A model generated the notes under the pieces. The model did not search any database. It was not told the origin of the DNA and saw only the letters and a program-made list of their open reading frames with translations. This document shows, piece after piece, positions 27,112 to 37,448 of a stretch of 64,000 nt of DNA (positions are counted from its first letter, which is position 1; each line of letters starts with the position of its first letter). The position numbers were made by a program, and so were the translations under genes. The DNA is from Halorussus salinus (GTDB lineage Archaea; Halobacteriota; Halobacteria; Halobacteriales; Haladaptataceae): assembly GCF_004765815.2 (NCBI RefSeq), contig NZ_SBIS02000007.1:1-64000 (forward strand), written 5' to 3'.

Positions 27112-28767
27112 TCACTCGTCGTCGCCGAGGAGCGCCCGGCCACCGACCACGGCCAACGCGGCGGCGACCAGCAGACCGGCGGCGATTAGCACCCCTGTCG
27201 TGCCCTCGGGCGGTCGAAGACTATTTGAGCCTCCGGACTTCGGGGCCGCACCGGCGCGTATCTCCGAGAGTTCCGCGACGCCGGGGGCGTTCACGAGAAC
27301 GACGGTGCGCCCGGTCCGGTTGACGTAGTAGGCGTCGCCGAACGAATCCCGTTCCGGAATCCGGTAGGTGTTCGTCCGGTCCTCGACCGCGGAGGCATTG
27401 TAGTAGGTGAGAAGCTCCCTGTAGCCGCTAACGAACTCCTCGCTGTCGTTCGCCGTCTCGAACGACAGCTTCCAGACGTACCCCGTCTCACCGGTCTCGG
27501 TCGCGTACGGGTAGAGCCTGTCGTCCTCCCACCCCGAGGCGTAGGGGTTGTCGCCGTACCGGTACGGGTCGAGGCGGTCGAGACCGTCGCCAGCGGAGTT
27601 GTAGAAGGTGCGAACCGGAAGTACCGCGGGGTGCTGGCGGTTCGTGTCGAAGACCGTGTAGACGAACATCGTCGTGATTCCCGGCATCCCGACCGAGGCG
27701 TACTTCGGCTGGCCGGTTTCGACCTCGGGTATTCGCCAGTTTTCGTCGCTCGTGTCGGTGAAATCGACGGTCGTCGGCTTTTCTGCGGGATACGCCTCGG
27801 GGTTCATCACCTGTTTCGTACTCGTCGGCGGCTGGTCGTAGAGTTGGTTGACGGCGTTCCAGCCGCCCGTCTCCTCGACCGCGTGGACGAAGTTGGGACC
27901 GTCGTAGTACGGATAGCTGTTCAGGAGCGCCATCCCAACGTGAGGGTCGGCCGACCCGTCGTCCCGTTCGGGAGCGGTCACGCAGTCCCACTTCGACTCA
28001 CACCGGTCGGCGTACTGCATCTGGACGTACTCGCTGTCGCCTTCTATGAGGCTGTTTATCGCGTTCTGAGACTCCGTGGTCCTGCGCAACTCGAAGGTCG
28101 CTAGCTCGAACCGGTCGGGGGCGTCGAACTGCTGGTTCTGAAGCACGTGGACGAGTTCGTGAGCCAGCAGTGGTTCGTTCAGCCTCGGACTTTCGGGGTC
28201 CTCGACGACGAACACCATCTCCTCGTCGGTCGGGCTGTAGTACCCTCGTGACCCGCCCGCGTTCGACTGAAGCACTTCGACGGCGTCGGTGTCTTCCCCG
28301 ACCATCAGCAGCGCCTCCCACTTCGCGTTCTTGCGGAGGGTCTCCGCCTCTGTCGCGACGAACCGCTCGTCGATGCGCTGCTCGAACGCCTGCGGCGAGA
28401 GGAACTCGATGCTCGGCTCTCCTTCGAACTCCAGACCGCGGACGGTTTCGACCCGAGCCATGGACCGGGCCACGACGGCCTCCAATTCGGTCGCGTTCAG
28501 CCCGTCGGTACCGTCCACGGCGATGGGTTCGTCGTACCAGCACCCGTTCTCCCAGCCGAGTTCGTCGCTCTCGGGGTCGGGGCGTCTCGACCCGTCTGAC
28601 GCGGGATTGCAGGCGTCCGCGTCGTCGATACGGGGCGCGCCGCCGACCGCCTCCGTCGCATCGACCTTCGGTGACGGACCCGACGCTTGGGTCGCCGCGA
28701 CGCCGGGGGCGACGGCGAGGCCGACCGTCAGAACGACGAAGGCGAGGAGCGGAAAGATTCGACGCAT
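27112..28767 (-). CDS. Hvo_1808-like surface protein with HELVH metalloprotease motif
   Basis: The 551-residue protein has an N-terminal signal peptide (FPLLAFVVLTVGLAVAPGVA) and a C-terminal membrane anchor (TTGVLIAAGLLVAAALAVVG) followed by a short acidic tail. The sequence LLAHELVHVLQNQQF contains HELVH at residues 203-207, a zincin-type motif. It resembles the haloarchaeal Hvo_1808 surface-protein family, named from memory. It probably sits outside the membrane and could be a metallopeptidase. It is downstream of, and co-directional with, the lanthipeptide genes, 111 bases from the esterase-like gene. Confidence 0.85.
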   Translation of the reverse strand: MRRIFPLLAFVVLTVGLAVAPGVAATQASGPSPKVDATEAVGGAPRIDDADACNPASDGSRRPDPESDELGWENGCWYDEPIAVDGTDGLNATELEAVVARSMARVETVRGLEFEGEPSIEFLSPQAFEQRIDERFVATEAETLRKNAKWEALLMVGEDTDAVEVLQSNAGGSRGYYSPTDEEMVFVVEDPESPRLNEPLLAHELVHVLQNQQFDAPDRFELATFELRRTTESQNAINSLIEGDSEYVQMQYADRCESKWDCVTAPERDDGSADPHVGMALLNSYPYYDGPNFVHAVEETGGWNAVNQLYDQPPTSTKQVMNPEAYPAEKPTTVDFTDTSDENWRIPEVETGQPKYASVGMPGITTMFVYTVFDTNRQHPAVLPVRTFYNSAGDGLDRLDPYRYGDNPYASGWEDDRLYPYATETGETGYVWKLSFETANDSEEFVSGYRELLTYYNASAVEDRTNTYRIPERDSFGDAYYVNRTGRTVVLVNAPGVAELSEIRAGAAPKSGGSNSLRPPEGTTGVLIAAGLLVAAALAVVGGRALLGDDE

Positions 28768-28878: not shown

Positions 28879-30237
28879 TCACCCCCCGCCAACGGGATTC
28901 GAAGGAGTCGTCTCGGCGACGAATATTAGTCCGTCGAAGGCTCGCCGAGGAGCGACCGACGCGTAATTCTTCTCGGAGTCGCTGTGGTAGACCGCGCCGA
29001 CGTTGTGCAGGCACGACTCGCGGTCGACCCACGCACTGACGGTCGGGTCTTCCGGAGGAGACGACAGGTCGAGAAAACAGACGCGCTCGTCGGTCGCGTC
29101 CAGAACTGCCGGGAGCGAGCCGTCTGGACCCGTCTCCATCGAGTGCGGACGAATCACCGGGTCGTCGTCCGACGTTGGGTCCGAGACGGCCACGAATGAC
29201 CCCCGCCCGAACTCGAATCCGAGCGCGTAGTACTCGTCTCCGTACTCCCGGCGCAGGTGGTCGCCCATGGTCGTCGGCGACGTTGCCGTCCCGCCTTCGT
29301 CCCCGTGTCCGAACATCCCAGTTCCCGTCGTGACGTGGCCGTTGTGTGCCCAGAGTGCGAGACGCTCGCCGGGCGCGTGGTCGAGAATCCAGCGAACGTT
29401 CTCGGCCATGGCGGCGTCTCGCACGGCGTCGGGTGACGGATGGTCGTCGAGGAGTGCCGCCGTCGCGAACTCGTGGGCTTGTTCGATGAGTCTCCGGCGT
29501 CGTCGAGCCAGCCGCCACTCTCGGTCGCCGACCGCCGACCGGTAGGCCTCCTCGCGGCGCTCGAATCGCTCCGACAACTTCTCCCCGAGAGTCTTGGCGG
29601 CGAGTACTTGGTCGGGCGTACTCTCGCGGCCCTGTCCGAGCCAGTCGGCGTCCAACTCCGCGAAGTGAGGCCGGACCTCGTCGAGATAGTCGGGGTCGAC
29701 CCGTTCGAGGAACGACCGCAGAGCCCGTGCCGGTCCCCGCGTCGACCGCAGGTCGAAACCGTACACCCGCACGCGCTCGGACCGGGGACGTTCCTCGTTG
29801 TACTCGCGGAGCCATTCGACGAGTTCGCACATCTCCTCGGTCGCACAGGTCCAGTAGGACAGCGCCTCGACGGCCGCCTCCGGACTCCCCTCACCGTCGA
29901 CGACGTAGCGGTCGACCCGACGGGCCGCCCCGAAGTTCGCCTCCAGTCCGAGCGCCCGAAGGTCTCGTTCGGTCACCAAAAACTGGACGAGTCGGCGTTT
30001 CAAATCGAAGAACTCCTTCGTCCCGTGGGTCGCCTCACCGAGGGCGACGACGCGTCTCGTTGCGAGGGTCTCCCCGATCGACCGCAGGTCGTCGAGGGTA
30101 TCGGCGTCCGGGCGCTCTAAGGGAACCACACACTCGCCGAGCCGCCCGGCGAGGTCGGCGATGTCCGTCACCGTCTCGGCCCTCGCGAGCCGTCGGCGCG
30201 ACGGTGACGCCGGGTGTAGTGGCGGTGATTGGAGCAA
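28879..30237 (-). CDS. Erythromycin-esterase-family protein in the lanthipeptide operon
   Basis: The 452-residue protein has the family's VVALGEATHGTKEFFDLKRR block (E68 and H71) and LALWAHNGHVTTG, matching the EreA/EreB-like hydrolase fold that uses a Glu/His pair. The only suitable start is TTG at 30237; the nearby ATG at 30248 is in another frame. It begins 13 bases after the permease stop, so it is probably the last gene of the lanM-ABC operon. It may tailor or hydrolyse the peptide product or confer resistance; it could also be an unrelated esterase. Confidence 0.85.
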   Translation of the reverse strand: MLQSPPLHPASPSRRRLARAETVTDIADLAGRLGECVVPLERPDADTLDDLRSIGETLATRRVVALGEATHGTKEFFDLKRRLVQFLVTERDLRALGLEANFGAARRVDRYVVDGEGSPEAAVEALSYWTCATEEMCELVEWLREYNEERPRSERVRVYGFDLRSTRGPARALRSFLERVDPDYLDEVRPHFAELDADWLGQGRESTPDQVLAAKTLGEKLSERFERREEAYRSAVGDREWRLARRRRRLIEQAHEFATAALLDDHPSPDAVRDAAMAENVRWILDHAPGERLALWAHNGHVTTGTGMFGHGDEGGTATSPTTMGDHLRREYGDEYYALGFEFGRGSFVAVSDPTSDDDPVIRPHSMETGPDGSLPAVLDATDERVCFLDLSSPPEDPTVSAWVDRESCLHNVGAVYHSDSEKNYASVAPRRAFDGLIFVAETTPSNPVGGG

Positions 30238-30250
30238 CGAGTTGTCATGG

Positions 30251-31024
30251 TCAGTAGTCGTCTAAGAGACCCCTCCTCCGTGCGTGGTGCTGTGCGAGGT
30301 GGAACGAGAGGTAGCCGATGAGTACGTAGACGACCGTGGTTGACGCCAAGATGGCGTGGTCCAGTAGGGAAAACTCGAGGAGACCCCGTCCGTTGGCCAT
30401 CGCTTCGTGGAGCATCGCCGCGCCCTGTCCGACCGGGAGGAGTCGGGGCCAGAACTCGTCGGTCAGCGCCATCGAGATGATTCCGATGAACGCGAACTGT
30501 AGCATGGAGAACATCCCTCGAATCCGCTTGTAGACGAGCGCCACGCCCCCCAGAAGGAAACCGACGCCGATGGCGTGGAGGATAGTCAGCCCGAGGACCG
30601 GCACTATCGTGACCAAGTCGATAGTGAGGCTCTCGCCAGTCATCACGAGGATGAATCCGAGGGTGACGACGCTAATCACGATGCTGACGACCAGATTCGC
30701 CAAGACGGATGCCAGCATGACGACCGGGAAGGGGAACGGAGCGACGTACAACTGCTGGAGCGTGCCGTACTTGGCTTCGGTGTTTATCAGCCCCGAGAGG
30801 GTGTAGAAGGTGGCGAGTACGGTCGTCAGGAGAAAGTACCCGACGATGATGGCGTCGACGTTGCTCTCGAACCCCTCCGGTGCAATCGTTCGTCCGCCGA
30901 CGAACACTAAGCCGAACACCATCAGGTACGTCGCCAGCGTTCCCAAGAAGTTCAAGGGGTAGCGACGGAGTTCGATGAGGGTTCGACTCGCGAAGCCGTA
31001 CAAAAGGATAGGGTACTTATACAT
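30251..31024 (-). CDS. ABC-2 type transporter permease (lanthipeptide locus)
   Basis: The 257-residue protein has six predicted membrane segments. Examples are LNFLGTLATYLMVFGLVFVG near residue 30, IIVGYFLLTTVLATFYTLSG near 70 and VVYVLIGYLSFHLA near the C-terminus. ABC-2 permeases with this size pair with a soluble ATPase. Its start overlaps the ATPase stop by eight bases, so the two are translationally coupled. The pair probably exports the peptide product or gives self-protection. It has no peptidase domain, unlike bacterial LanT exporters. Confidence 0.92.
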   Translation of the reverse strand: MYKYPILLYGFASRTLIELRRYPLNFLGTLATYLMVFGLVFVGGRTIAPEGFESNVDAIIVGYFLLTTVLATFYTLSGLINTEAKYGTLQQLYVAPFPFPVVMLASVLANLVVSIVISVVTLGFILVMTGESLTIDLVTIVPVLGLTILHAIGVGFLLGGVALVYKRIRGMFSMLQFAFIGIISMALTDEFWPRLLPVGQGAAMLHEAMANGRGLLEFSLLDHAILASTTVVYVLIGYLSFHLAQHHARRRGLLDDY

Positions 31025-32048
31025 CGGTCGTGTCGTCGGTCGTCATTTCGAGGAACACGTCGCCGAGGTCGGGACGAATCGTCTCGAAGGTCCGGACGGT
31101 ACAGTCTATCTCGCGGAGTTCGTCCGACAGCGAGTGAACGTCCTCGTCGTACGTTATCTCGAACTCGTGGACCTCGCCGTACTGGTCGTGGTCGGTAACG
31201 TCGAACCGGGACCGGAGGGTCTCGACGGTCGAGGAGGGGACGGGCGCGTCCAGTCTGATCCGATAGGCGGTGGTCCTGAAGAAGTCGAGCAGGTCGGCGA
31301 CGGAGTCGTCGGCGATAACCCGTCCCTCTGAGAGAACGATTACCCTGTCGCAGATGTTCTGGATGACATCCATGTCGTGGCTGGTGAGAACGACCGTCAA
31401 ATCCTGATCCGCGACGAGCGACCGGATTTCGTCTTGGAGTTTGAGCGATGTCTCGACATCCAGCCCGAGCGTCGGCTCGTCGAGCAGCGCGACCTCCGCG
31501 GCCCGAGAGAGCGTACTGGCGATTGCCACCTTCTGTTTCTGCCCGCGAGAGAGTTTCCGAACCGGCACGTTGGCCTTCTCCGCGAGGTCGAGTCGCTGGA
31601 GGAGGGCGTCGTGGCGGTCGCGGCGGTCGGAGGCCCGAACGCCGTTCAGCCGGGCGAAAAACTCCAAGTTCTCCCGGACGGTCAGCCGCCAGTAGGCGTC
31701 CCGAGACCCCTCGAACATCGCACCGACCCTCTCGTGGGTCCACGCGAGGTTCTCGTGGACTTCCCGGCCGCCGAGCGTGACGGTTCCGGAGTCGGGAACC
31801 AGCGTCCCTAGCATCGTCTTGAGAGTCGTCGTCTTTCCTGCTCCGTTCGGCCCGAGTACTCCGACGACGGAGCCGGGTTCGATCTCGAACGAGACGCCGT
31901 CGACGGCCGTCACGTCGCCGCCGCCGAAGGTCATCGTGAGGTCATCTACCGCGAACGCGGGGCCTTCGGCGGCCACCTCCTCGCGCTCGGCGGTCTCGGC
32001 CGAAGACTCGGAGTTCGATCGACGTTGCGTTTCCATAACGCTATCCAT
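31017..32048 (-). CDS. ABC transporter ATP-binding protein (lanthipeptide locus)
   Basis: The 343-residue protein carries Walker A (GPNGAGKTT, about residue 70), the signature KLSRGQKQKVA and Walker B (VALLDEPTLGLD). A C-terminal extension of about 90 residues of the DrrA/CcmA kind follows. It starts 115 bases after the lanM stop on the same strand and overlaps the permease start. It energises the ABC-2 permease for export or immunity. Confidence 0.94.
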   Translation of the reverse strand: MDSVMETQRRSNSESSAETAEREEVAAEGPAFAVDDLTMTFGGGDVTAVDGVSFEIEPGSVVGVLGPNGAGKTTTLKTMLGTLVPDSGTVTLGGREVHENLAWTHERVGAMFEGSRDAYWRLTVRENLEFFARLNGVRASDRRDRHDALLQRLDLAEKANVPVRKLSRGQKQKVAIASTLSRAAEVALLDEPTLGLDVETSLKLQDEIRSLVADQDLTVVLTSHDMDVIQNICDRVIVLSEGRVIADDSVADLLDFFRTTAYRIRLDAPVPSSTVETLRSRFDVTDHDQYGEVHEFEITYDEDVHSLSDELREIDCTVRTFETIRPDLGDVFLEMTTDDTTDV

Positions 32049-32162: not shown

Positions 32163-35100
32163 TCACTCCAACAGCAGGACGCAGGGAAGCGACGGGTCCA
32201 CCGTCCTGAGAAGGGAGTAACCGATTCCCGCCTCACCGCCGAAGAATCCGGGGTCGTACCAGTGTTCGGTACCCCACTGCGTCGAGAACCCGCCAGCATC
32301 GTCGGCCCGCCGGACGCAGGCCCCCGCGAGTCGCTCGGCGTCGCGGCGAAGCGTCGGTTCGTCCAAGGACCGGGCGGCCCGCAGGAGGAGTTCGACCCGG
32401 CCGAAGTTGCCACAACAGACGTGGTCGGCGGCGAACGCCGTCGTCGGGTCGATGCCCCGGAGCGCACGCCGGGCGTCCGCGAGACGTGCGTCGGTCGTGT
32501 CCACTGCGTCGGTTCCCAGTCTGGCGAGACCGATTCCGGTCCGGCCGTGACACCAAGCGTCCATCGAGTCCGTCTCGCTCGTCGGTCGGAGGTCCGGCCA
32601 GTTCGTGGTCTCCTCGTCGAAGCGACGGCGCTCGAACGCGAGGCTTTCGGCGGCGACGGTTCCGAACCGCGAGTCGCCGGTCGCCGATTCGAGTCGAGTC
32701 AACGCGTACGCGATGCCAGCGGTTCCGTGAGAGAACCCACAGACGGGGCGTCCGACCGACGCCGGTGCCCACGTCGGCACCCCGTCGCGGTGGGTCGCAC
32801 TCTCCAACAGGTGGTCGCCAGCACGCCTCGCTCGGTCCAAGACCTCGTCGTCTCCGGTCGCTTCGTACAGCGAGACGAGTCCGAGTACGGCTCCGGCGCT
32901 TCCCTGTAGAACGTCGTACTGCTGGTCGGCGGCGATTCGCTCGTCGCCCAAGACGCCAGCGACCTGCTTCGCCCCGCGGAAATACTGCGAGTCGTCGAGC
33001 AGTTGTCCGACCTTCGTAAGCCCGTAGGCAATCGAGCCGAGACCCACGACCCCACCGACCGGACGCGGCGGGTAACGGGCGGATGTCGAGTCGTTCTCGA
33101 AGGTGTCGCTATCGAGGGCGTCGAGAATCGGGGCCACCGTCTCCCTCGCCAGACGCTCGTACCGCTCGTCGTCGAAGACTCGGGCGAGACCGGCGAGGAA
33201 GATGCCGATTCCGACTCGTCCGTCGTATAGCGCGTCGTCTATCGGAGCAACGTCGATTCCGCCGTCGGCCCCGACCCGCCGGAGGACCCAGACCGGGTCG
33301 CCGTCGTCACGTCGTGCGGTCGCCTCGATTCGGTCGAAGATACCCTCGGCGGTCTCCTCGACGAGCGTTTCGAAGTCCTCCCGACCGTCTCGTTCCGCTC
33401 GACCGTCTCGCCCGTGGTCGATTCGCGTCGTCTTCCCCGACCCGTGGGTCTCCACGTGGTCTCGGTACCCCCACCGGAGGTAGTCGCACTGTTCGTCGAG
33501 GTCGGTCCCGTCGAACGCCTCGATTCGGTCGCGTATCTGCTCCACCGGTGGCTGAACGAAGAAGTCGTCGAGAACGTGGTCGTCACCGTCGAGGAGGTCG
33601 GTACTCCGAAGTTCGGCGGTAAACCGAGGAGTACCGTACTCCCGAAGCGCGTCTCGCTCGGCCTCGTAGAGCGACCACACCGCCGGGTCTACGTCGTGGG
33701 CGACCACGAGTTTCGCCAGCACCTCCACTCGGGTCCCGAAGTTCAGTCCGTTTCGGAGGTGGTCGGCCGACCGCATCGCCGTGCGTATCCGGCCGTAGGC
33801 GACCGTCGGTCGGTACACGACTCGTACCCGTGCCTCTCTGTCGGTAAGCCGGTCTATCGGACCGCCCTCCGCCAGCATCGCGGCCTTGTTGTCGAGGACG
33901 AACCGGTACATCTCCTCGAACCCCCGAACGATGTCGTCAACGTGGGTCCGCGGCCCGACCACGGAACCGTCGTACACCGGCAGGTTCTCCCCCTCGCGGT
34001 CGGGGGTCGGCACGTTCTCCAAGTCCATCCGGTCGGTGTTGACGTTCGTGAACTGCTGGGTCTCGGCGTCGATACTGGCCTGATTCGTCGAGAAGCCAGC
34101 CATGTCGCCGACATCGCCGTCCGGAACGTGTCGGGGAACGACGCCGGTCCGAACCACGGTGTCCGCGACGACCTGAACGGCCTCGTTGATACGGCGCATC
34201 TCCGGCTTCGCGACGGGTTCCGTGACCGTCTCCAAGTCGATAGCCACGGGCTGGGACCCTACCGCGACGATGTTCTCCAAGTGCATGTCGGTCGCCGCGA
34301 ACGCGTAGAACAGACACATCAACATCCCCGCCCGGCGGTAGTACTCGGCGGGACCCTCGGGGTCGGTACACGCCGCCGGACGGACCCACTCCATCCACGC
34401 GTACTCCTCTCGATAGAGTACTTCGAGCGTCTGCAGAGGTGGCAGGTCGCCCCGTTCGTTTATCCACTCGACCAACTCGTAGAAGCCGACGACGATGCCC
34501 GCGTTCCGGGGTTTGTACCCGACGGTCGTCCCCGACTCGAAGGCGACCCGGAAGACCGCCCGTCCGCCGTTGTGGTGGTCGCCGAGGACCTCGATACCGG
34601 TCACCGCTCCCACGTCCTCCCCGTCGGCGAAGGTCCGACCGAGTTGCGACGAGTCGCTGGCCACGCGAGCGGTGAACTCCTCGACTCTGGCGCGCCACTG
34701 CCGGAGGACCGTCACCAGCAACCGACCGAGAAACGAGTACTCCGAGAAGAACGACCGCAGACGCTCCGCGGTCGCCATCTCCTCGACGAACTCGTCGTAG
34801 TATCGGGTCGCGCCCGGCTCGGGCATCTCGTCGCCGAGCACTAAATCCGGGTTCTCGTTCGCCACGTGGGTCTTGAAGTCGATGAACAGTGCCCGCGACC
34901 AGAGTCCCGTTACCCGAGTCGCCAGCCACCCGAACAGGTCGGCTACCGCCGACGACGAGAGCGGACCGGCCGAGTCGAGGTCTACTCGTGTCCGGGCGTA
35001 GCCCACGACCGGCTCCACCAAGTCCCGAAAGGGTAGCTCACGGTCGGCCGCTATCTCGACCTCCGGCGACGGGTTCTCGACGACGAACGCGACCAACTCG

Positions 35101-35384
35101 TCGAGTTCCTCGACCCAGCCCGGAAGCGGTTCGTCGTCCGGCCACCCGGCGACGGCCATCCGGCGACGACACTCTTGCTCGTCCAGTCCGTCACGTTCGA
35201 GGCGGTCACCGAACGCCTCGCGGTCGCCGTTGGCGACGCGCTCGCGCCACTCATCGAGTTGCTCGTCCAACGACGCTGTGATATCTTCGTCGCGGTCGGT
35301 CGCGTCGGGGTCGCATCCGAGTCGCTCCTGAAGCGTCCGCGCGTCCCCGGCAATCGACTTCTTTTCTTCCGTAGAAAATACCAT
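32163..35384 (-). CDS. lanM: Class II lanthipeptide synthetase LanM
   Basis: The 1073-residue bifunctional enzyme has an N-terminal dehydratase (DUF4135-like) with VGYKPRN (K291), TDMHLENI (D366, H368, E370, N371) and AIDLETV (D383, E385), the phosphotransfer/elimination residues that dehydrate Ser/Thr. The C-terminal LanC-like cyclase (about residues 720-1073) has DAWCHGRTGIG (C945) and HVCCGNFG (C990, C991) as zinc ligands. The third ligand is Cys instead of the usual His, the CCG type known from ProcM-like synthetases. Length is normal for LanM. The ABC exporter and esterase genes follow on the same strand, and a peptide candidate lies divergently upstream. Confidence 0.95.
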   Translation of the reverse strand: MVFSTEEKKSIAGDARTLQERLGCDPDATDRDEDITASLDEQLDEWRERVANGDREAFGDRLERDGLDEQECRRRMAVAGWPDDEPLPGWVEELDELVAFVVENPSPEVEIAADRELPFRDLVEPVVGYARTRVDLDSAGPLSSSAVADLFGWLATRVTGLWSRALFIDFKTHVANENPDLVLGDEMPEPGATRYYDEFVEEMATAERLRSFFSEYSFLGRLLVTVLRQWRARVEEFTARVASDSSQLGRTFADGEDVGAVTGIEVLGDHHNGGRAVFRVAFESGTTVGYKPRNAGIVVGFYELVEWINERGDLPPLQTLEVLYREEYAWMEWVRPAACTDPEGPAEYYRRAGMLMCLFYAFAATDMHLENIVAVGSQPVAIDLETVTEPVAKPEMRRINEAVQVVADTVVRTGVVPRHVPDGDVGDMAGFSTNQASIDAETQQFTNVNTDRMDLENVPTPDREGENLPVYDGSVVGPRTHVDDIVRGFEEMYRFVLDNKAAMLAEGGPIDRLTDREARVRVVYRPTVAYGRIRTAMRSADHLRNGLNFGTRVEVLAKLVVAHDVDPAVWSLYEAERDALREYGTPRFTAELRSTDLLDGDDHVLDDFFVQPPVEQIRDRIEAFDGTDLDEQCDYLRWGYRDHVETHGSGKTTRIDHGRDGRAERDGREDFETLVEETAEGIFDRIEATARRDDGDPVWVLRRVGADGGIDVAPIDDALYDGRVGIGIFLAGLARVFDDERYERLARETVAPILDALDSDTFENDSTSARYPPRPVGGVVGLGSIAYGLTKVGQLLDDSQYFRGAKQVAGVLGDERIAADQQYDVLQGSAGAVLGLVSLYEATGDDEVLDRARRAGDHLLESATHRDGVPTWAPASVGRPVCGFSHGTAGIAYALTRLESATGDSRFGTVAAESLAFERRRFDEETTNWPDLRPTSETDSMDAWCHGRTGIGLARLGTDAVDTTDARLADARRALRGIDPTTAFAADHVCCGNFGRVELLLRAARSLDEPTLRRDAERLAGACVRRADDAGGFSTQWGTEHWYDPGFFGGEAGIGYSLLRTVDPSLPCVLLLE

Positions 35385-35692
35385 AACGAATCTTAGTGTA
35401 TCTCGAAAAAGGCATACTGTAAAACAGTTTCGTTGTGATACAATTCGGGGTGACGCCGCGCCGCGACGAACGGGCCGTCGGCTACTACCACGTCGGCGTC
35501 GGCAATCGTGTCCGAAATCGGTCGGCTACGAATTTCAGCGTGGGGTTCTCATCTGCGGTGCTGTCGGTCCCGTCTTACTTTGCGCTACTATCTCTAGTCG
35601 TCCATCGAACAAACATGTGTGATTACATCAGTATAATCATAAATATAATTATAGAAAAATGTAAGTAATGCTCGGTATTTTACCTAAGTTGC
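35385..35692. other. AT-rich divergent promoter region between lanM and the precursor gene
   Basis: The 308-base space is much richer in A and T than its surroundings. A 13-bp palindrome (ACTGT-AAA-ACAGT, 35416-35428) lies 32 bases upstream of the lanM start. ATAAATATAATTATAG near 35639-35654 is a strong TATA-like stretch for the plus-strand precursor. A 77-codon frame at 35435-35668 exists but looks accidental. Confidence 0.5.
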
Positions 35693-35827
35693 ATGTCGTC
35701 AGATAGCCTAAAAGATCAGATCGAAGCGGCATACGAACAGGACGAGCGACCCGTCGAAGCGGGAACCGAACAGGCTGGCCAGATGACCGTCGCCTTCTGT
35801 GGCGGTCACTACACCAACCTCGAATAG
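35693..35827 (+). CDS. lanA: Candidate lanthipeptide precursor peptide (44 aa)
   Basis: The short frame encodes an acidic leader-like helix (SLKDQIEAAYEQDERPVEAG, residues 5-24), an AGQ segment at 28-30 and a C-terminal core QMTVAFCGGHYTNLE. The core has T32, a single Cys at 36 and T41. A methyllanthionine ring between T32 and C36, with T41 available for dehydration, would fit LanM chemistry. It lies 308 bases from lanM, divergently, behind an AT-rich promoter. The acidic leader is typical of class II precursors. No classic double-glycine site is present; cleavage near AG (28-29) is a guess. It is too short for routine gene finders. Confidence 0.7.
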   Translation: MSSDSLKDQIEAAYEQDERPVEAGTEQAGQMTVAFCGGHYTNLE

Positions 35828-36020: not shown

Positions 36021-37448
36021 ATGGTAAGCAGAGCAGATAGGGTCGCCGTGACGGTACTTGCCGCCAGCGTCCTCCTCGGTCTCGTCGCGGGAGCGGGAGG
36101 TGTGGCGGGCGACCGACCCAACTCGTCGGGGACCGCCGAACCGCCCACGACATCCACGCTGGTGGTTGCCGAGAACGGGAGCGGCAGTTACGAGTCGATT
36201 CAAGCAGCAATCGACGCGGCGTCACCCGGCGCGACGGTCGAGGTCCGACCGGGAACGTACGACGAACGACTCGTGATAGACTCGTCGATTACGGTGGTGG
36301 CTCCCGACGGCGCGACGCTAAACGGGGAGGTCCTGCCGGGTGAGGCGACGGCGCTCACGATTTCTTCGGGGAGCGGAGCCGAACCGGTAATCGACGGACT
36401 GACCATCACCAACTACTACGACGCCGTCTCGGCCAACGATACTGCTGGCGGGTGGACGCTCCGCAACGTCACTATCCGGAACAATCGGAACGACGGCGTC
36501 ATCGCCAACCGTGCGAGCGGCGAGTGGTCCATCCGCAACTCCACGATTCGGGAAAACGCCGACGAGGGGCTAGAGGCCGAGAACACCACCGGCGCGTGGA
36601 CGATACGCGGGACGAGTATCGCGAAAAACGAGGACGACGGCATCGACGTGGATGGCGCGGACACCACCGGTGCGTGGACGATTCGGAACTCGACTATTCG
36701 CCGGAGCGGGGACGACGCCATCGACGCCGACGAGGCGCAGGGTGCGTGGATGGTCCGAAACACGGTCATCAGCAACAACCGGAACGGTATCCAGATAATC
36801 GACGGTTCCGGGGACTGGACAGTCGCCGACAGCATTATTCGTAACAATACCGGATACGGCGTCTACGCGGGGAGCGGCACAGGAGACTGGACGATTCGCC
36901 ACACTCACTTCCTGTACAACGTGGTAACGAGCGTCCACGCCGCCGGAACCAGCGGCGACTGGGGGATTCGAAACACGACTATCCGCGATTCCAACGTCGG
37001 AGTCAACGCGAACTCCTCGACGGGCAACTGGACTATCAGTCGCTCCAGCATCCAGAACACGTCGGTTCCCAAGTTCGACTTGACCGGCGAGGGAACCGGC
37101 ATCTACGCTCCCAACTCAACGGGGGCGTGGACGGTCCGGCGGTCGAACATCGACGACAACGCCGAACACGCCATCGACGCGACCGGTTCGGCTACCCGAG
37201 GAGACGCGACTCGCAACTGGTGGGGCGCAGCGGACGGGCCGAGCGAGGGCGACTGCGTCGGGAGCGTGGACTGTAGCGCCTCGCTCTCGTCGTCCGCTCG
37301 CGTCCCGGACCCGCCGACGATAGGTTCGGACGCCGACGCCGATGCCGTGTCCAGCGACGGCGGCATCGGACTACTCTCGTTCGTCGTAGTCGGCGCACTT
37401 GCGGCCGTCCTGATTACGCTGACCGTGCTGACTCGACGGTACACCTAA
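36021..37448 (+). CDS. Surface-anchored right-handed parallel beta-helix protein
   Basis: The 475-residue protein has a signal peptide (VAVTVLAASVLLGLVAGAGG), about ten coils of the pattern GxWTIRNSTIRxNxxDGI across residues 70-420, and a C-terminal membrane segment (LLSFVVVGALAAVLITLTVL) ending RRYT. The repeats resemble pectate-lyase/NosD-type beta helices, but no catalytic site is evident, so binding or structural roles are likely. ATG 36021 is supported by the signal peptide directly after it and a TATA-like CTTTTGTA about 26 bases upstream. It lies 193 bases downstream of the precursor gene. Confidence 0.87.
   Translation: MVSRADRVAVTVLAASVLLGLVAGAGGVAGDRPNSSGTAEPPTTSTLVVAENGSGSYESIQAAIDAASPGATVEVRPGTYDERLVIDSSITVVAPDGATLNGEVLPGEATALTISSGSGAEPVIDGLTITNYYDAVSANDTAGGWTLRNVTIRNNRNDGVIANRASGEWSIRNSTIRENADEGLEAENTTGAWTIRGTSIAKNEDDGIDVDGADTTGAWTIRNSTIRRSGDDAIDADEAQGAWMVRNTVISNNRNGIQIIDGSGDWTVADSIIRNNTGYGVYAGSGTGDWTIRHTHFLYNVVTSVHAAGTSGDWGIRNTTIRDSNVGVNANSSTGNWTISRSSIQNTSVPKFDLTGEGTGIYAPNSTGAWTVRRSNIDDNAEHAIDATGSATRGDATRNWWGAADGPSEGDCVGSVDCSASLSSSARVPDPPTIGSDADADAVSSDGGIGLLSFVVVGALAAVLITLTVLTRRYT

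Follow-up and report, generated by a model that had tools for sequence, protein, structure and literature searches.

The window, by which we mean the whole 64,000-nucleotide stretch of Halorussus salinus DNA analysed here, carries the gene of a class II lanthipeptide synthetase (LanM) and, divergently oriented from it, a short ORF that is very probably the substrate gene (lanA) of this enzyme (probability about 0.92). The features of the locus are listed below, with their basis in brackets.

27112 to 28767, minus strand: Hvo_1808-family surface protein with an HELVH (HExxH) motif (NF038145, 516 bits)
28879 to 30237, minus strand: erythromycin-esterase-like protein, candidate accessory enzyme (PF05139, E = 3.7e-73)
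30251 to 31024, minus strand: ABC-2 type permease (PF01061)
31017 to 32048, minus strand: ABC transporter ATPase, probably for export or self-protection (PF00005)
32163 to 35384, minus strand: lanM, class II lanthipeptide synthetase (TIGR03897, DUF4135, LANC_like, LicM2/CylM, motif alignment)
35630 to 35665, plus strand: putative lanA promoter region, AT-rich and TATA-like (sequence; similar DNA upstream of the counterpart in genome G064)
35693 to 35827, plus strand: predicted lanA, encoding a class II precursor peptide of 44 residues (match in the locus of the closest LanM relative; leader profile built without the ORF)
36021 to 37448, plus strand: beta-helix surface protein directly downstream of lanA (PF13229)

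The window LanM is full length (TIGR03897, 727 bits versus a cut-off of 304), consists of a DUF4135 dehydratase and a LANC_like cyclase domain, and shows similarity to the structures of LicM2 and CylM. The roles of the LanM motifs are established from CylM and ProcM, and all of them are present (KPR, DxHxEN, D-x-ET, R-x-T, WCHG, and CCG). Both domains, intact dehydratase and cyclase motifs, and the zinc ligands expected of a class II enzyme were found. ProcM-type synthetases have a Cys in CCG as the third zinc ligand and act on many scattered substrates. The window LanM has the same zinc site, which is the usual form in a comparison of 39 haloarchaeal LanMs, but in contrast to ProcM it would serve one local substrate. 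A scan of contigs with the window LanM gave distant bacterial relatives only; whole-genome searches were then used for its relatives. There is no LanT peptidase-transporter at the cluster, the transporter being a plain ABC-2 pair, and no GG-type leader site precedes the core of the 44-aa peptide. The double-Gly/LanT feature of bacterial systems does not define the archaeal ones, since the known archalan and sallan clusters also have ABC-2 pairs.

The ORF at 35693-35827 starts with ATG and translates to MSSDSLKDQIEAAYEQDERPVEAGTEQAGQMTVAFCGGHYTNLE, 44 residues with a single Cys. T32, C36, and T41 are where an earlier note on this DNA had placed them, and its distance of 308 bases to lanM is exact when measured to the LanM start codon at 35384. 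The TATA-like stretch that it described upstream corresponds to AAATATAATTATAG within the strongly AT-rich segment 35630-35665. A consensus scan gave sigma-70-like matches in this segment slightly above those of shuffled sequences, although such a scan does not test for archaeal promoters; the DNA upstream of the G064 peptide gene is likewise AT-rich with TATATA stretches. The usual cut-off of Prodigal is 90 nt, which the ORF exceeds with 135 nt. Neither Pfam nor NCBIfam holds a model matching the peptide.

A translated search with the 44-aa peptide across 382 haloarchaeal genomes gave one convincing match outside its own genome (E = 3.7e-6), and this is the only close counterpart found. It lies in G064, which belongs to another family than the window host, and encodes MARNSQAKKRIESMYEREEPTVEGGNDRAGHMTIAFCYDTSPDLH, a 45-aa peptide in the locus of the G064 LanM, 1.86 kb from lanM with one gene between. 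The G064 LanM is the closest relative found of the window LanM (50-51% identity), and the two are paired with 100/100 support. Global alignment of the two peptides scored 86, versus a mean of -0.3 (sd 7.0, maximum 30) in 2000 shuffles. Between the two peptide genes pN is 0.33 and pS 0.66 (pN/pS about 0.5, with high synonymous differences), which suggests purifying selection between families.

The peptides of the window and G064 have AGxMT(V/I)AFC in common. Within it T32 is the sole dehydratable core residue conserved in place and C36 is the sole Cys, whereas T41 is shifted or replaced in G064. A further comparison came from genome G172, whose LanM is also a near relative:

L042 10345-10464 and 10016-10135, minus strand: tandem single-Cys precursors before one LanM in G172, one with Thr-x3-Cys

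These two precursors, MSANNNVKAQFENQYSRDDPDEQTAEYIPPTLTMGCGSY and MPTNTDNVKAQFEKEYAREEPTVKKGDEIPPPTLYNCGH, share the leader type, and the latter has the Thr-x3-Cys spacing of the window peptide. Because T32 and C36 are conserved in G064 and this spacing recurs in G172, T32-C36 is the best prediction for a single ring, which lends support to the ring proposed in the earlier note. The same LanM might instead close the ring in the opposite direction, from Cys36 to Thr41, leaving Thr32 unmodified or as Dhb; T41 does lie five residues past C36, and sallan of the same genome has its Cys N-terminal to Ser (CTRYSF; PMC12144867). We consider this unlikely, given that T41 is replaced or shifted, in contrast to T32-x3-C36, which recurs in the G064 peptide and one precursor of G172. 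Two further ideas of the earlier note fared less well. The product would not be unusually small, as one-ring lanthipeptides do not stand out by small size among those of archaea, sallan A2 being the six-residue CTRYSF (PMC12144867). Metal binding by the GGH segment was rejected and the idea dropped because the residues following the Cys are not conserved, GGH being YDT in G064 (CYDTSPDLH).

The core of archalan beta is GLPSASMYSFEHCC, starting at the G of KA|GLP (PMC10105419). By alignment with it we place the window core GQMTVAFCGGHYTNLE at G29-E44, with a leader of about residues 1-28. In the proposed pathway, the acidic, helix-like leader SLKDQIEAAYEQDERPVE would be bound by LanM, which would dehydrate Thr32 and possibly also Thr41 to Dhb. 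The CCG-type cyclase would then add Cys36 to give one methyllanthionine ring, T32-V-A-F-C36. Cleavage of the leader near A28/G29, as expected from homology with archalan beta, would leave roughly GQMTVAFCGGHYTNLE, lighter by one or two waters, for export as the mature product by the neighbouring ABC transporter. The calculated [M+2H]2+ of this core is 864.379 unmodified, 855.374 after one water loss, and 846.369 after two, with trimming at either terminus likely. The ORF, its conservation, the intact LanM, and the cassette are read from the sequence itself, and expression, ring, cleavage site, export, and activity of the lanA product are what we infer for this locus; the activity is probably directed against other haloarchaea or is a signalling one, by analogy with the archaeal lanthipeptides already known.

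The host genome encodes SalA (CTRYSF) and the published archalan alpha (GCGFTCSPFSSW), beta (GLPSASMYSFEHCC), and gamma (CSCYTRICCDIDS) cores, which is why we take the host to be H. salinus YJ-37-H or a near-identical strain. Six LanMs were found in it, and six lanthipeptide clusters are reported for YJ-37-H (PMC12144867). The published text describes products from four of the six (PMC10105419, PMC12144867); products of the window cluster and of a pellan-like cluster, L046, are not described in the text of these two papers. The pellan-like precursor of the same genome is MARDISQSLESQYEPSHTETDDRAVIGETNCYLSTDPICGSSGEDDEMEF (L046 10977-11129, minus strand, G000 C1). Several hundred precursors were predicted from small ORFs adjoining lanM (PMC12144867), and since small ORFs next to lanM were taken, ORF 35693-35827 may be among the 353 predicted LanAs in Supplementary Data 2 of that paper, in which case the ORF itself would already have been predicted. 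Elsewhere, G124 has five tandem short precursors with SCxSxxC-type cores upstream of one LanM (L115 4172-5351), and Cys-rich precursor arrays of about 60 aa, several copies almost identical, lie near LanM at L051 216-2154 and L053 3661-4548.

Archalan beta and gamma resemble the window peptide in stemming from the same genome and a class II LanM (PMC10105419, PMC12144867) and in the leader type (S)(L/V)(K/R)xxxExxY; the KA|G site before the archalan-beta core is also similar to QA|G of the window peptide. They differ in carrying two to four Cys and multiple rings, where the window peptide has a single Cys and a single MeLan ring is predicted. Sallan A1/A2 is likewise an archaeal class II product of this genome with a single thioether ring (PMC12144867), the ring of the window peptide being a prediction. 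The sallan ring runs Cys first (Cys1-Ser5) whereas the window ring is predicted to be Thr first; the sallan precursor has an unlike leader and core, and its LanM falls in another clade.

Leader profiles were built from the precursors of related LanMs without the window and G064 peptides. One such profile picked ORF 35693-35827 from 4496 short ORFs (E = 3.4e-5). A second one, run against all six frames of the whole genome, found it at E = 0.0026; the only other matches were the archalan beta and gamma precursors, which scored above the ORF and were themselves members of that profile, and no further precursor of the same leader type was found elsewhere in the genome. No other ORF in the neighbourhood of the window LanM passed the size, charge, and Cys filters for a precursor, and nothing else in the whole window scored in the leader profile. 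The earlier note had named a different Cys/Thr-rich peptide conserved with LanM as evidence against its reading; such a peptide was sought, and the nearest LanM, that of G064, is instead accompanied by the same peptide type with T32 and C36 conserved, in agreement with a lanthipeptide precursor. The ORF is short and near lanM, its leader is related to those of LanAs of related LanMs by profiles and alignments, its C-terminal core has Cys and Ser/Thr, and it is conserved together with LanM in another genome. A decayed or silent precursor, with a LanM that is vestigial or acts on another genome-encoded peptide, would fit the absence of this cluster from the four with products described in text (PMC10105419, PMC12144867). 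It is very unlikely in view of the intact ORF and LanM motifs, the purifying selection suggested between families, the AT-rich putative promoter region, and a genome without further precursors of the same leader type. A chance ORF in an intergenic region, which the shortness and the modest GC3 difference to the other codon positions might suggest, is refuted by the G064 counterpart, the leave-out profile matches, and the shuffle test. We concluded that sequence on its own could hardly make a stronger case for the ORF as the LanM substrate gene.

Homologues of the ABC ATPase/permease pair occur near many haloarchaeal LanMs. The erythromycin-esterase-like protein has a 43% counterpart directly after LanM in the G064 locus (L040) and one other copy in its own genome. 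Proteins of this type lie beside LanM in three haloarchaeal loci (the window, L040 10103-11371, and L111 3716-5101) and are related to the solved structures of a succinoglycan biosynthesis protein and EreC; on their occurrence in RiPP clusters, the literature yielded a single paper, on graspetides, which calls the role unclear. In L040 the Hvo_1808-family protein has a 43% counterpart immediately preceding LanM, and in L098 another, with HELVH invariant; its own genome has three other near-full-length copies. Such proteins with HELVH adjoin LanM in three loci (the window, L040 5225-6847, and L098 3109-4812). A PDB profile search with it gave nothing significant, the sub-threshold matches over the HExxH stretch being IrrE-type zincins; it is a possible candidate for a leader or maturation protease. 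Read by eye, the beta-helix protein seems to carry a signal at its N-terminus and a membrane anchor at its C-terminus; it has a 38% counterpart beside lanA in the G064 locus (L040 3208-4785), and no close full-length paralogue in its own genome.

The genes shared by the window and G064 are those of LanA, LanM, the esterase-like protein, the Hvo_1808-type HExxH protein, and the beta-helix protein; besides these, only generic ABC ATPases are shared. Order and orientation differ between the two loci, and because the same genes recur in shuffled order between families, the five-gene set points to a functional cassette, of which no earlier description was found. A more speculative extension, rather unlikely as a whole, is that one-ring Thr-x3-Cys lanthipeptides form a small group whose synthesis and maturation depend on a conserved cassette and whose leader is cut extracellularly by the Hvo_1808-family HExxH protein, with the beta-helix and esterase-like proteins as further maturation or immunity parts. 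If true, this would identify, for this group, the protease still lacking from the maturation of archaeal lanthipeptides.

The ORF is almost certainly a genuine precursor to be added to the known haloarchaeal class II lanthipeptides, although the surprise is moderate since single-ring products are already known from sallan. The lanA assignment would fill a gap in a known producer strain, where this cluster is one of those with no product described, and the cluster suggests proteases that may account for how archaea remove the leader, a step so far unexplained. With one Cys and one conserved Thr, the predicted substrate-enzyme pair is very simple and would provide a test of ring direction and spacing in haloarchaeal CCG-type LanMs.
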